64,000 nt of DNA from Magnetovibrio sp. (GTDB lineage Bacteria; Pseudomonadota; Alphaproteobacteria; Rhodospirillales; Magnetovibrionaceae), in assembly GCA_026196495.1 (NCBI GenBank), contig JAPHSY010000013.1:1-64000 (forward strand), written 5' to 3'. Under the pieces are notes generated by a model. It did no database searches. It saw nothing but the letters and a program-made list of their open reading frames with translations, and had not been told where the DNA came from. The position numbers and the translations under genes were made by a program. This document shows, piece by piece, positions 30,938 through 36,529 of this stretch; positions within the stretch are counted from its first letter, which is position 1; each line of letters opens with the position of its first letter.

Positions 30938-31128
30938 GCATATGAATAAACAATCATGAGTATATTCACGTTATGCTTTTTCTGTCTATGTTTTGTTCTC
31001 TTTTTGTTTGAGTTTTTGGTAAATGAAATTCAATCGTATGGGGCTGTTCTACCCGTTGGGCACATGCTAAAAGGTTCGGGCGCAATTTTGAGTGCGTATT
31101 GTTTGATCACTTTAGGGGGAGCGTCCTC

Positions 31129-32016
31129 ATGACGGCACCTAGTTCTGCACCCGTAATCGGCGTGATTGGCGGCAGCGGTATCTATGAAATCGATGGCTTG
31201 GAAAACACCGAATGGAAAAAGATTGAAAGCTCTTTTGGCGATCCTTCTGATGAGCTTTTGTTTGGTGAGTTAAATGGTCAAAAGATGGTGTTTTTGCCAC
31301 GTCATGGTCGCGGACACCGCATTCCCCCATCTGACTTGAATTTTTGCGCAAATATCGATGCGATGAAGCGGGCAGGTGTGACCGAAATTATTTCCGTTTC
31401 GGCGTGCGGTTCACTGAAGGAAGATTTACCACCAGGAAAGTTTGTGATTTGTGACCAGTTTATTGATCGCACGTTTGCGCGCACCAAAAGTTTTTTTGGT
31501 CCGGGATTGGTGGCACACGTCGGACTTGGCGATCCGGTGTGTTCGCGTTTGGCGGATGCTTTGGAAGAAGCCGCCAAAGAAATCAGTTTGGACTATCAAC
31601 GTGGTGGCACGTATCTCGCGATGGAAGGTCCACAGTTTTCCACCAAGGCAGAATCAAACCTCTATCGCAGCTGGGGCTGTGATGTGATCGGCATGACCAA
31701 CATGCCCGAAGCGAAATTAGCCCGCGAAGCAGAGATGTGCTACGCCACCGTCGCCATGGTTACGGATTTCGATTGCTGGCACCCCGATCATGATCATGTC
31801 ACCGTGGACAGCATCATCAAGACGTTGTTGGACAATGCTGATAAAGGCCGCAATCTGGTCAAAACCGTTGCGCCAAAACTATCTGGCCGCAGTGATGTGT
31901 GTGACAAGGGCTGCCAAACGGCTTTGGATACTGCCATCATCACCGCCCCGGATGCGCGTAATCCCGAAATGATCAACAAATTGGATGCGGTCGCTGGCCG
32001 TGTGTTGAAAGGCTAA
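31129..32016 (+). CDS. mtnP: S-methyl-5'-thioadenosine phosphorylase
   Basis: 295-residue phosphorylase that splits methylthioadenosine (from polyamine, ethylene or homoserine-lactone synthesis) into adenine and methylthioribose 1-phosphate. ATG 31129 has AGGGGGAG upstream; a TTG at 31099 is in frame but not family-like. Signatures: [76 protein letters not shown]. mtnA follows after four bases and an aldolase after that. Confidence 0.94.
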
Positions 32017-32020
32017 GGCT

Positions 32021-33118
32021 ATGCTTGTGAATGGCAATCCCATGCGCACCATCTGGGTTTCCGAAGATGGTGAAGCGGTTGATATTATCGACCAAACCAA
32101 GCTACCGTTTGAATTTGAAACGGTGCGTTTGGAAACGGTAGAAGAAGCGGCGCATGCCATCTTTGACATGCTGGTTCGCGGGGCGCCGCTGATTGGTGCA
32201 ACGGCCGCCTATGGTTTTGCTTTGGCGATGAAGTCGGACTCATCCGACGACAACCTCACCAAAGCGTATAAGACCCTTTATGAAGCACGCCCGACCGCAG
32301 TGAACTTACGTTGGGCAATTGATGAGCAAAAGTCAGCTGTGTCTGGCCTTGCCCCAGAAGAGCGTTTTGAAGCCGCATGGCAGCGCGCCCATGAAATTGC
32401 AGACGAAGATGTTGAAATTTGCTCTTCCATTGGTGAAAACGGCAAAACCTTAATCGAAGAAGCCTGGATCAAGGCTGACAAATCGCGTCCGGTGAATATC
32501 CTGACCCACTGTAATGCAGGTTGGCTTGCGACTGTGGACTGGGGTACCGCGATTGCCCCGATTTACAAAGCACACGAAGCGGGCATCCCGGTGCATGTGT
32601 GGGTGGATGAGACCCGTCCGCGTAACCAAGGTGCCAGCCTGACAGCGTGGGAGCTGAACCAGCACGGCATTCCGCATACGGTGATTGTCGATAATGCGGG
32701 TGGTCACTTGATGCAGCATGGCCAAGTGGACCTGTGCATCGTTGGCACTGACCGTACCACGTACACGGGCGATGTCTGCAACAAGATTGGAACGTACCTC
32801 AAAGCCTTGGCTGCGCATGACAACGGTGTACCGTTCTATGTTGCCTTGCCAGGGCCTACCATCGACTGGACCTTAGATGACGGTTACAGAATTCCCATCG
32901 AAGAACGCGATGATGCTGAAGTCACCCAGATGAACGGTAAAGATGCTGCGGGCAACATTGTCAATGTACGTATTGTGTCCGAAGGTTCCAAAGGCGGCAA
33001 CCCGGCTTTTGATGTCACGCCGCGTCGCTTGGTGACCAAGCTTATCACTGAAAAAGGTGTGTGTGATGCTTCCGAAGAAGGCCTGCGGGGGCTCTATCCC
33101 AACGCACTTGGGGTCTAA
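32021..33118 (+). CDS. mtnA: S-methyl-5-thioribose-1-phosphate isomerase
   Basis: 365-residue eIF2B-related isomerase that turns methylthioribose 1-phosphate into methylthioribulose 1-phosphate. Conserved: [37 protein letters not shown] (catalytic Cys), [17 protein letters not shown] and [20 protein letters not shown] with the catalytic Asp. Length is standard. It lies between mtnP and a class II aldolase, all with gaps of five bases or fewer, so the three form one operon. Confidence 0.95.
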
Positions 33119-33123
33119 GTCCT

Positions 33124-33876
33124 ATGCGTCACGTTGATATTCGCCAGAAAATTATCAAAACGGCACTGAGTCTCAATGAAACGGGGCTCAGTGCTGGTGC
33201 TTCTGGCAACGTTTCTGCTCGTGTTGATGGTGGTTTTTTAATCACGCCGTCCGGGGTGAAGTATCACAAGTTACGCCCTGAAGACATTGTGTTCATGGAT
33301 TTTGAAGGTAACGTCATCCAAGGCAATTACGTGCCGTCTTCGGAATGGCGCTTCCACATGGACATCTACAATGCGCGTGATTACGCCAAAGCCATTGTCC
33401 ATGCCCATCCACCGTACTGCACTGCGCTGGCGTGTTTAAACAAGGGTATCCCTGCATTTCACTACATGGTTGCCGTCGCTGGTGGGAAGAACATTCGATG
33501 CTGTCGCTATGAGCCTTTCGGCACGGCGGAATTGTCCGAAGCTGTTGTGAAAGCCTTAGATGGACGGCGTGCGTGTCTTATGAGCCACCATGGCATGATT
33601 GCTTATGGTGACAATTTGGAAAAGGCATTGAGCCTCGCCGTCGAGGTGGAGGTTCTGGCACAGCAATATCAGTTGGTCTTGCAAATGGGCGAGCCGGAGC
33701 TTTTGTCTGACGAGGATATGGAGCGTGTGATGCACCAGTTCTGGACCTACGGTGACAATGCCCAAAAGGTTGAAAACGAAAAACGTCGCAAACCGCGCAA
33801 GACTTGGAAAACCGGTGTTTCCTATCCCAAACGCTCAACCTTTTACAAACGTCCGAACGAAAAGGACGGGATGTAA
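33124..33876 (+). CDS. Class II aldolase/adducin-family enzyme (Ald2-like, methylthioribulose-1-P cleavage)
   Basis: 250-residue class II aldolase. Zinc-ligand histidines are in VHAHPPYCTAL and MSHHGMIAYG, and the N-terminus has GLSAGASGNVSAR, which binds the sugar phosphate. In Rhodospirillum rubrum an mtnP-mtnA-ald2 set cleaves methylthioribulose 1-phosphate to dihydroxyacetone phosphate and 2-methylthioacetaldehyde (the DHAP shunt). The same order here makes that the best prediction; MtnB dehydratase activity is less likely because mtnC, mtnD and other Met-cycle genes are absent nearby. The C-terminal tail (35 residues) is basic. Confidence 0.8.
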   Translation: MRHVDIRQKIIKTALSLNETGLSAGASGNVSARVDGGFLITPSGVKYHKLRPEDIVFMDFEGNVIQGNYVPSSEWRFHMDIYNARDYAKAIVHAHPPYCTALACLNKGIPAFHYMVAVAGGKNIRCCRYEPFGTAELSEAVVKALDGRRACLMSHHGMIAYGDNLEKALSLAVEVEVLAQQYQLVLQMGEPELLSDEDMERVMHQFWTYGDNAQKVENEKRRKPRKTWKTGVSYPKRSTFYKRPNEKDGM

Positions 33877-33932
33877 ATCTTCTAAATGGCGTTTTGTTGG
33901 AATTGTCTGACTATTCATGAATGCAATTGTGA

Positions 33933-33946
33933 TTGATGGATATCAA
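33933..33946. promoter_or_regulatory. Perfect FNR-type box upstream of ubiT
   Basis: TTGAT-GGAT-ATCAA matches the FNR/FixK consensus TTGAT-N4-ATCAA at every fixed position. It is centred about 101 bases before the ubiT GTG. A -10-like TATAGG follows at about 33969-33974, which fits a class II activated promoter with the box near -41.5. This predicts induction of ubiTUV when oxygen is low. Confidence 0.75.
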
Positions 33947-34040
33947 TTACTTCAGAATCGTTTCAACATATAGGTATTGTATTAATTGGCGGGTATGGGA
34001 TGATCGCGCCAAATGTTAATATCACGATAGGTGTTTTACC

Positions 34041-34625
34041 GTGTTTCCTTCCAATGGAAAGCCTCCACCATTGTCTCCGGTTCTGTTGGCAGGCATAGCC
34101 GCCCGACCTGTTTCGCCGCGTCTTTTACAGCCTGTTTTAGATCATGTTATGAAGCTTTTGGGCAAGCAACATCCGGATTTGTTTGAACGGCTTTCATGTC
34201 TTTCTGATCCGACGTTCCTGATTGATCCCATTGACCTACCTGTGGTGTTTCATTTGGATGCAAACCCGGAACGCACGTATCTAGAGGTGTCGCGTTCAAT
34301 AGAACGCCCTGCCGCCGCCGTGATCCGTGGCCCGTTGATGACGTTGTTGGATTTATTGGAAGGCCGTATGGACGGCGATGCGCTGTTTTTTTCACGCGCG
34401 CTGGCGATTGAAGGGGATACCGAAGCCGTGGTCGCGCTCCGCAATGCCGTTGATGATTCCGGTATTGATCTCAGGGGTGATGTTCTGGCTTCCTTTGGCC
34501 CGTTTGCCAAACCGGCGCATCGTGTGCTGGGAATGGGCGGGCGCATTTATACGCGTATGAGCCGTGATCTCGATATGTTGAAAGCTGCCTTGCAGCAGCC
34601 ACAACCCAAAGGCCCACAAGCATGA
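34041..34625 (+). CDS. ubiT: Anaerobic ubiquinone accessory factor UbiT (SCP2 domain)
   Basis: 194 residues with an SCP2 lipid-binding domain (LPVVFHLDANPERTYLEVSRS through LEGRMDGDALFFSRALAIEGDTEAVVALRNAVDD). UbiT binds ubiquinone intermediates and, with UbiU and UbiV, supports oxygen-independent ubiquinone synthesis. The start is a GTG at 34041. The stop overlaps the ubiU ATG (ATGA). A perfect FNR box lies upstream. Identification is strong because ubiU and ubiV follow in order. Confidence 0.9.
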   Translation: MFPSNGKPPPLSPVLLAGIAARPVSPRLLQPVLDHVMKLLGKQHPDLFERLSCLSDPTFLIDPIDLPVVFHLDANPERTYLEVSRSIERPAAAVIRGPLMTLLDLLEGRMDGDALFFSRALAIEGDTEAVVALRNAVDDSGIDLRGDVLASFGPFAKPAHRVLGMGGRIYTRMSRDLDMLKAALQQPQPKGPQA

Positions 34626-35608
34626 AAAAATTGGAATTGGTTTGTCCTGCCGGTACACCGGCGGCGTTGCGCGCAGCTGTTGATAGTGGCGCGGATACCG
34701 TTTACCTCGGGTTTCGCGACGCCACCAATGCCCGCAACTTTCCCGGTTTGAACTTCAGCCGACCAGAGCTGGAACAAGGCATCGAATATGCCCGCAGCAA
34801 GGGTGCGCATATCTATTTGGCGATCAACACATTCCCCACGGCGGGTGATCCGGAACCTTGGCACAAAGCCGTGGATGATGGTGCTGCTTTGGGTGTGGAT
34901 GCGGTGATTTTGGCTGATATTGGTATGTTGGATTATGCTGCGCAAAACCACCCGGATTTGCGCCGTCACTTATCGGTCCAAGCCTCAGCCTCAAACCCCG
35001 AAGCCATCAATTTTTACCAAGATGCTTTTGACGTGAAACGTGTGGTGTTGCCGCGTGTGTTGACGGTTCCAGAAATCAAAGCCCTGCACAAAGAAATCTC
35101 GGTGGAAACCGAAGTGTTTGTATTTGGTGGCCTGTGTGTGATGGCAGAAGGACGTTGTTCCTTATCCTCATATGTTACAGGGCAATCACCCAACACCAAC
35201 GGTGTGTGCTCACCTGCGTGTGATGTGCGCTATGAAGATGAAGACGATGGCTCCATGGTTTCCCGCTTGGGCGATTTCACCATTAACGCCTTTGCCCCTG
35301 GTGAGGCCGCGGGCTATCCGACTTTGTGCAAAGGTCGCTTTGTGGCCAATGGGGAAACATCTTATCTGTTTGAAGACCCGGTAAGCCTCAATGCGGCTTC
35401 TATGCTATCGGAATTGCAAGAAGCAGGGGTGACAGCTCTTAAAATTGAAGGCCGCCAACGCGGTAAAGCCTACATTGCCGAAGTGGTGTCATCTTTCCGC
35501 AAATCTGTAGATGGTATGGAGAGCGGAGCAGAAGTTGAAAATGATTTGACCCAAGTCGCCGAAGGTCAGCGTAAAACCGCTGGCGCATATCAGAAAACAT
35601 GGCGCTAG
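34622..35608 (+). CDS. ubiU: Oxygen-independent ubiquinone hydroxylation protein UbiU (U32 peptidase-like)
   Basis: 328 residues of the U32 family. The Fe-S cysteines of UbiU are visible: GLCVMAEGRC, then GVCSPAC, and later YPTLCKG. In E. coli UbiU and UbiV form a heterodimer with one [4Fe-4S] cluster each and take the place of the O2-dependent hydroxylases UbiI, UbiH and UbiF under anoxia. N-terminus ELVCPAGTPAALRAAVDSGADTVYLG is typical. Overlap with ubiT and a 15-base gap to ubiV indicate one operon. Confidence 0.93.
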   Translation: MKKLELVCPAGTPAALRAAVDSGADTVYLGFRDATNARNFPGLNFSRPELEQGIEYARSKGAHIYLAINTFPTAGDPEPWHKAVDDGAALGVDAVILADIGMLDYAAQNHPDLRRHLSVQASASNPEAINFYQDAFDVKRVVLPRVLTVPEIKALHKEISVETEVFVFGGLCVMAEGRCSLSSYVTGQSPNTNGVCSPACDVRYEDEDDGSMVSRLGDFTINAFAPGEAAGYPTLCKGRFVANGETSYLFEDPVSLNAASMLSELQEAGVTALKIEGRQRGKAYIAEVVSSFRKSVDGMESGAEVENDLTQVAEGQRKTAGAYQKTWR

Positions 35609-35623
35609 GGCAGGGAACGTACA

Positions 35624-36529
35624 ATGAATAACACCTTGGTCATGGGCCCCGTCCTGTTCAACTGGAAGCCGGAAGATTGGCGTGATTTCTATTTTCGTAT
35701 TGCTGATGAAGCCGACGTTGATGAAGTCTTTGTTGGCGAAGCAGTATGTTCTAAACGCACGCCGTTTCTCGACCCGTTCATACCAGATGTGGTCGAACGT
35801 CTGGTGGCGGCCGACAAAAAGGTTGTTCTGTCGACTTTGGCTTTGATCATGAACACCCGCGAAATGAACAACGTGCGTGACATTACCGCCAGTGGTGATG
35901 AAGATATATTGGTTGAAGCCAACGATGTATCTGCAACGGCTCTTCTTAAAGGCCAACCTCATGCCATCGGCCCTTACGTTAATATCTACAACGAAGGTAC
36001 GCGAGATTACTTTGCCCGCAATGGTGCAACGTCTATTTGCTTGCCGGTTGAGTTGGACTTAAACGCCATTGGCGCGCTGGCGAAAGATAGCCCCGTACCT
36101 TTGGAAGTGATGGTGTTTGGTCGTCTGCCGTTGGCCATTTCGGCACGGTGTTATCATGCCCGTGCACACAAATTGCACAAAGATGGTTGTCAGTACATTT
36201 GTGCGGAAGACCCCGATGGCCTGGATGTTCAGACCTTGAATGGCGAACCGTTCTTGGCGGTGAACGGCGTACAAACCATGTCACATGCTTATTCAGACCT
36301 GAGCGCGTCGGTATCGGATTTGCAGGATTTAGGCATCAACCGCTTCCGCCTGTCGCCCCACGCCAATGTGGATATGGTGGCCGTTGCCCAACTTTATCGT
36401 GAGGTTGCCAACGGTGCCATTGATGCGCAAGAAGCCCACGCCCGCCTGTCCGGTTGGATGGATGGTGCAGCGTTCTGCAATGGCTATATCAAGGGCGAGA
36501 ACGGTCATACGTTTAGTGATGCCCAATAG
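35624..36529 (+). CDS. ubiV: Oxygen-independent ubiquinone hydroxylation protein UbiV (U32 peptidase-like)
   Basis: 301 residues. Four cysteines positioned as in UbiV: GEAVCSKRTPF near residue 40, and the cluster SARCYHARAHKLHKDGC then YICAEDPDG. VGEAVCSKR and MVFGRLPLAISARC are characteristic. Partner of UbiU in a 4Fe-4S heterodimer that hydroxylates ubiquinone precursors without oxygen, probably using prephenate as the oxygen source. It closes the ubiTUV operon. Confidence 0.93.
   Translation: MNNTLVMGPVLFNWKPEDWRDFYFRIADEADVDEVFVGEAVCSKRTPFLDPFIPDVVERLVAADKKVVLSTLALIMNTREMNNVRDITASGDEDILVEANDVSATALLKGQPHAIGPYVNIYNEGTRDYFARNGATSICLPVELDLNAIGALAKDSPVPLEVMVFGRLPLAISARCYHARAHKLHKDGCQYICAEDPDGLDVQTLNGEPFLAVNGVQTMSHAYSDLSASVSDLQDLGINRFRLSPHANVDMVAVAQLYREVANGAIDAQEAHARLSGWMDGAAFCNGYIKGENGHTFSDAQ

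Follow-up and report, generated by a model that had tools for sequence, protein, structure and literature searches.

A perfect FNR-type box upstream of ubiTUV in a Magnetovibrio genome in which no Fe-S-type FNR was found

The presence of FNR-type sites before the genes of the oxygen-independent ubiquinone pathway follows a published pattern. In the available part of a survey of Pseudomonadota, 1362 of 1566 ubiTUV sets have at least one candidate FNR site upstream; control is formally proven in E. coli and P. aeruginosa only, and Sphingopyxis granuli contributes data on expression (PMC11707229). The box that we describe here, upstream of ubiTUV in a Magnetovibrio genome, is a further case of this pattern and of a kind already known, since the motif, the genes and the upstream position are the same. 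However, that part of the survey explains the conserved sites by FNR control, and we found no Fe-S-type FNR in this genome. In E. coli, Fnr activates the ubiUV and ubiT p2 promoters, according to the portion of the work cited here (PMC10470549). The two systems are alike in the activation of oxygen-independent ubiquinone genes by the Crp/Fnr family, which in our case is predicted from sequence; they differ in that the E. coli sites (TTGATTTAAGGCAG and TTGATTTATACCGC) are imperfect, the promoters are divergent, and FNR is the proven activator.

The likeness to P. aeruginosa lies in the box itself. In the cited excerpts, ubiUVT is transcribed under Anr (PMC10247376), and Dnr is described as having a site that cannot be told apart from the Anr box (PMC5398030). 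However, Anr is the reported activator there, whereas the only proteins with an FNR-type helix that we found here are DNR-like. In denitrifiers, the NO-responsive, FNR-like DNR reads a motif resembling the FNR box before denitrification genes; the available part of that study names no ubiquinone genes in the DNR regulons, unlike the ubiTUV set considered here (PMC1274295). Within the literature searched, and as far as its accessible text goes, UbiU and Dnr occur together as whole words only in the P. aeruginosa paper that assigns ubiUVT to Anr (PMC10247376). The novelty of this case would lie in the reader, as the box is perfect and our searches of the genome gave no Fe-S-type FNR. Should a DNR-type protein be its reader, FNR control of anaerobic ubiquinone synthesis could no longer be claimed from the motif without a check of the regulators in each genome, and nitric oxide may be the signal instead of oxygen.

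The window, i.e. the whole stretch of DNA that was analyzed, is 64,000 nucleotides long. A sequence-only reading of it had claimed an exact FNR box with class II promoter geometry ahead of the oxygen-independent ubiquinone genes, and had predicted from this an expression regulated by oxygen. The box, TTGATGGATATCAA, is indeed exact, a perfect palindrome of the form TTGAT-GGAT-ATCAA (Table 1). It extends by one pair on each side, to ATTGAT-GGAT-ATCAAT, and is listed in the inverted-repeat search with arms of 9 nt that are 89% complementary. It was rightly described as the sole full match in the window: TTGAT-N4-ATCAA occurs once in the 64 kb, against a mean of 0.13 in shuffles of the window, 13 out of 100 of which have at least one match. 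It lies in the gap at 33877-34040, between the end of a class II aldolase gene (33876) and ubiT. The identity of the genes downstream was borne out as well, as the adjacent ubiT, ubiU and ubiV all exceed the cut-offs of NCBIfam equivalog models. The overlap of ubiT with ubiU, and the position of ubiV only 15 bases further on, make a single ubiT-ubiU-ubiV operon likely. Both the start of ubiT and the -10 region align with two related loci (L042 and L043).

Table 1. Features of the ubiTUV promoter and genes, in window coordinates
Feature	Position	Strand	Basis
FNR/ANR/DNR-type box, exact palindrome	33933..33946	+	Motif scan; inverted-repeat search
Predicted -10 hexamer TATAGG, 22 bases past the box	33969..33974	+	TATAAT matches are highest at offset 22 in relatives aligned on the box
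Predicted transcription start, box at -41.5	33981	+	Geometry alone (prediction)
ubiT, SCP2 domain, GTG start	34041..34625	+	NF047962, 69.1 bits (cut-off 46.9)
ubiU, start overlapping the ubiT stop	34622..35608	+	NF047963, 520.1 bits (cut-off 440)
ubiV	35624..36529	+	NF047965, 355.2 bits (cut-off 275)

The predicted start follows from placing the center of the box, 33939.5, at -41.5. The hexamer at the class II offset of 22 has four of the six letters of TATAAT. Taken alone it is weak, because 9% of the hexamers in the A+T-rich gap at 33877-34040 score at least 4/6. What makes the class II spacing convincing is the peak at offset 22 in the relatives, together with some further boxed promoters in this genome. 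When 13 ubiT promoters, including that of the window, were aligned on their boxes, the matches to TATAAT peaked at offset 22 with 3.0 of 6 letters, over a background of 1.32, and none of 5000 random rotations matched this peak. The value at offset 22 was still 3.0 in the nine promoters left after removal of the window and of one member of each of three close pairs (P 0.0004, any offset). A separate set of eight boxed promoters from other genera again peaked at offset 22, with 3.125, a height reached in none of 3000 rotations. The spacing claimed for the -10-like element is thus supported by two separate sets of relatives, and the start remains a predicted one. A consensus scan of 33700-34700 for a complete sigma-70-type promoter found none (shuffles, 1.1), which fits a promoter dependent on an activator without proving one.

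The genome has further boxes of this type. Exact TTGAT-N4-ATCAA sites number 15 in 3.1 Mb, against 0 for the reversed control. Nine of them fall within called reading frames, and we therefore rejected an exact match as proof of function. The looser motif TTGAY-N4-RTCAA has 37 sites, 20 inside called genes and 17 intergenic; the intergenic share compares with 8.5% of uncovered sequence in the window, as judged by the same rough gene calling (p 2e-9). The intergenic boxes precede ubiE-menA, ccoNO, napF-napA, a COX3-like gene and the divergent pair nosZ/SCO1, as well as a hemerythrin gene beside a dnr-like gene and genes for a bacterial globin, a DUF2249 protein, a chemotaxis receptor, and a hemerythrin-histidine kinase. 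The remaining ones are near contig ends or before genes without assigned identity. Four fragments of 60 residues and the globin gave no NCBIfam match at 1e-10, and longer stretches were used afterwards. The hexamer at offset 22 matches TATAAT in 5/6 letters before ubiE-menA and the DUF2249 gene, in 4/6 before the globin gene, the hemerythrin gene beside the dnr-like gene, and on the nosZ side of the divergent site, in 3/6 before napF, SCO1 and the chemotaxis receptor gene, in 2/6 before the histidine kinase and COX3-like genes, and in 1/6 before ccoN. The offset-22 pattern within the genome is therefore good, not uniform. The box before ubiE and menA (G000:C41:18300-18313; L099:5301) is exact, and together with its 5/6 hexamer at the class II offset it suggests a possible joint control of menaquinone-type and ubiquinone genes.

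We also considered the genome-wide counts of TTGAY-N4-RTCAA as a sign of an active regulator and rejected them, as in 59 of 60 genomes there are more such sites than in the reversed control. A count by itself is no proof: G005, a genome without a ubiU match or a close DNR-like protein, still has 35 sites (reversed control, 6), to be compared with the 37 given above. This congener is rated 100% complete, and its lack of ubiU holds at E <= 1e-60.

Seven proteins of the genome exceed the cut-off of HTH_Crp_2 (PF13545), and a search with PF00027 gave 15 cNMP-binding stretches and no additional Crp/Fnr protein. When the seven sequences were read, none had the N-terminal Fe-S cysteine cluster of FNR, and none reached the cut-off of the NCBIfam models for FNR or FnrL. 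At E <= 1e-30, the FNR of the order, represented by a protein of G019 with the cysteine cluster, has matches in 56 of the order's 238 genomes and in none of the 18 that belong to the window's family. Cysteine-type proteins distant from this query are ruled out by reading in the window's own genome only; elsewhere a more distant type, such as the CHEC type in G034, would escape the query. In short, the sequence-only reading stands for the FNR-type box, its class II spacing and the genes downstream, and the oxygen sensor FNR that it put in control finds no support in these searches.

FNR-type proteins read TTGAT by means of a recognition helix with the pattern E..SR. This helix is present in three of the seven HTH_Crp_2 proteins, namely one encoded on contig C40 (G000:C40:1635-2387) and a pair encoded on contig C22. 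The third-best PDB match of the C40 protein is DNR of P. aeruginosa (3dkw, E 2.7e-31), the two better ones being Crp-type structures without a named function, and in the alignment the segment QPETFSR is identical in the two proteins. No NCBIfam model gave the C40 protein a name over its cut-off; the best, FtrB, reached 138 bits against the 211 needed. In a tree that has no reference DNR and leaves out two of the seven proteins of the genome, it falls among the hits that the DNR query has in its family (98/95), and the FNR clade (100/99) is separate; the row of G054 in this tree is probably a misread frame. A box lies beside a dnr-like gene or its hemerythrin neighbor in this genome and in five of the six others scanned (G001-G004 and G008, not G006). 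Among the three proteins with the E..SR helix, the DNR-like C40 protein is most likely the best candidate for the reader, judging from these sequence comparisons.

Among the relatives, boxes of at least 9/10 letters are found in 13 of 30 regions upstream of ubiT, including that of the window, and six of these have all ten. In 300 rounds of roughly dinucleotide-preserving shuffles, boxes of at least 9/10 averaged 0.89 (largest value 5) and all-ten boxes 0.04. The box is probably ancestral rather than accidental, because more distant relatives have such boxes at the same place. However, the pattern is different close to the window. None of the four congeners with ubiTUV has an intact box, although all four have a DNR-like protein, and it is also missing from the three other family members with ubiTUV (G006, G007 and G015). 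In the nearest relative, the alignment of the ubiT promoter extends across the -10 region, and of the box only the right half-site is kept. The sequence-only reading had held that it would be refuted if close relatives had lost the box; this is the case in all four of these congeners, but more distant relatives are boxed.

The comparison was extended to 53 regions by adding 23 regions to the 30 above. The 36 loci of the second set were drawn from 134 genomes with ubiU, a single locus for each genus absent from the first set; loci where the ubiT start could not be placed upstream of ubiU were dropped (7 of 37 in the first set and 13 of 36 in the second), and for a few starts the placement relied on a weak motif alone. 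With FNR presence defined as a match to the G019 FNR at E < 1e-40, and the weaker matches of G021 and G208 left uncounted, the box occurs in 12 of the 16 genomes that have FNR vs. 9 of the 37 that do not (p 0.0008, uncorrected for kinship). Among the FNR-less genomes it occurs in 6/30 with a DNR-like protein vs. 3/7 without, and DNR presence was rejected as a predictor, for lack of association. Box retention in general goes with FNR, not with DNR, and FNR is the better predictor. The window is therefore an exception, to be explained by another reader or as a relic. As for the genes themselves, ubiU and a DNR-like protein co-occur among the relatives (30/35 vs. 6/24, uncorrected for kinship).

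Our main reading is that the box is the class II activator site of the ubiTUV promoter, read most likely by the DNR-like C40 protein, and we give it a probability of roughly 0.55. A dimer of the Crp/Fnr family would bind the box at about -41.5 and recruit RNA polymerase to the predicted -10 element, so that ubiquinone synthesis without oxygen would be turned on during nitrogen-oxide respiration or oxygen shortage. The binding, this direction of control and the nature of the signal, which may be nitric oxide, oxygen or both, are what we infer from the arrangement. That the promoter is of the class II Crp/Fnr type and came from FNR-bearing ancestors is well supported by the comparison of sequences; that a DNR-type protein would read it at present, in a genome without FNR, is the more conjectural part. 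On a wider scale, DNR-type regulators may have taken over the whole FNR-type class II regulon in a lineage that lost FNR, including nap, the cbb3 oxidase, nos, NO-defense genes, and the quinone branches ubiTUV and ubiE-menA, which would tie ubiquinone made without oxygen to nitrogen-oxide respiration and not to oxygen. We hold this joint proposal only tentatively, at somewhat less than even odds.

Other explanations have to be weighed against the reading by the C40 protein. A true Fe-S FNR could read the box and have been missed through an incomplete assembly. The general pattern speaks for such a protein, with FNR presence predicting the box across the order and, in the available part of the survey, candidate FNR sites before most ubiTUV sets (PMC11707229). 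However, the genome is rated 100% complete, the seven proteins read have no cysteine cluster, and the 18 genomes of the family have no match to the order's FNR at E <= 1e-30, which makes a missed FNR highly improbable. The C22 pair offers another reader, and one with a suggestive position, as its genes are divergent to those of a nitric oxide reductase and a 9/10 box lies in the gap between the pair and the NorB gene. The latter is named from its PDB match (NorB 4xyd, E 1.1e-194), no NCBIfam model naming the nor genes at 1e-15, and the neighboring norC, norQ and norD were named by eye. Both C22 proteins have the E..SR helix, but their DNR matches (9.7e-10 and 3.7e-17) are weaker than that of the C40 protein, and they sit on long, poorly placed branches of the tree. 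We consider it improbable that they read the box in place of the C40 protein. Finally, the box could be a relic from FNR-bearing ancestors that is decaying in the family for want of a reader and happens to be still intact in this species. We regard this as unlikely, though worth retaining, given that searches of the family's 18 genomes with the order's FNR gave no match (E <= 1e-30), that all seven relatives with ubiTUV named above have no intact box, the nearest keeping one half-site, and that, where FNR is missing, the presence of DNR does not predict the box. In the window, nevertheless, the two half-sites and the pair flanking them are perfect, and some reader seems to be active, because other intergenic boxes precede napF-napA, ccoNO, nosZ, ubiE-menA, hemerythrin, and globin genes.

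A few observations concern the surroundings of dnr-like genes in the relatives and of the box in the window. In the nearest relative (G002, L144:4103-8492), a dnr-like gene adjoins napF-napA and is divergent from it, with the box TTGACCGGGGTCAA in between. In G003 (L146:1-2143), hemerythrin-dnr is divergent to a gene for a heme-copper oxidase subunit I with a small partner, and the gap contains two boxes; the best PDB match of this subunit is a cytochrome c oxidase, with ba3-type enzymes among the next. Genes similar to this oxidase locus are found in G004 (L147:425-2670). In the accessible part of another paper, M. blakemorei is mentioned for its nitrous oxide reductase (PMC4065386). Upstream of the box, mtnP, mtnA and a gene resembling that of L-fuculose-phosphate aldolase, which scores below the cut-off, are consecutive at 31099-33876, an arrangement like that of the methylthioadenosine "DHAP shunt".
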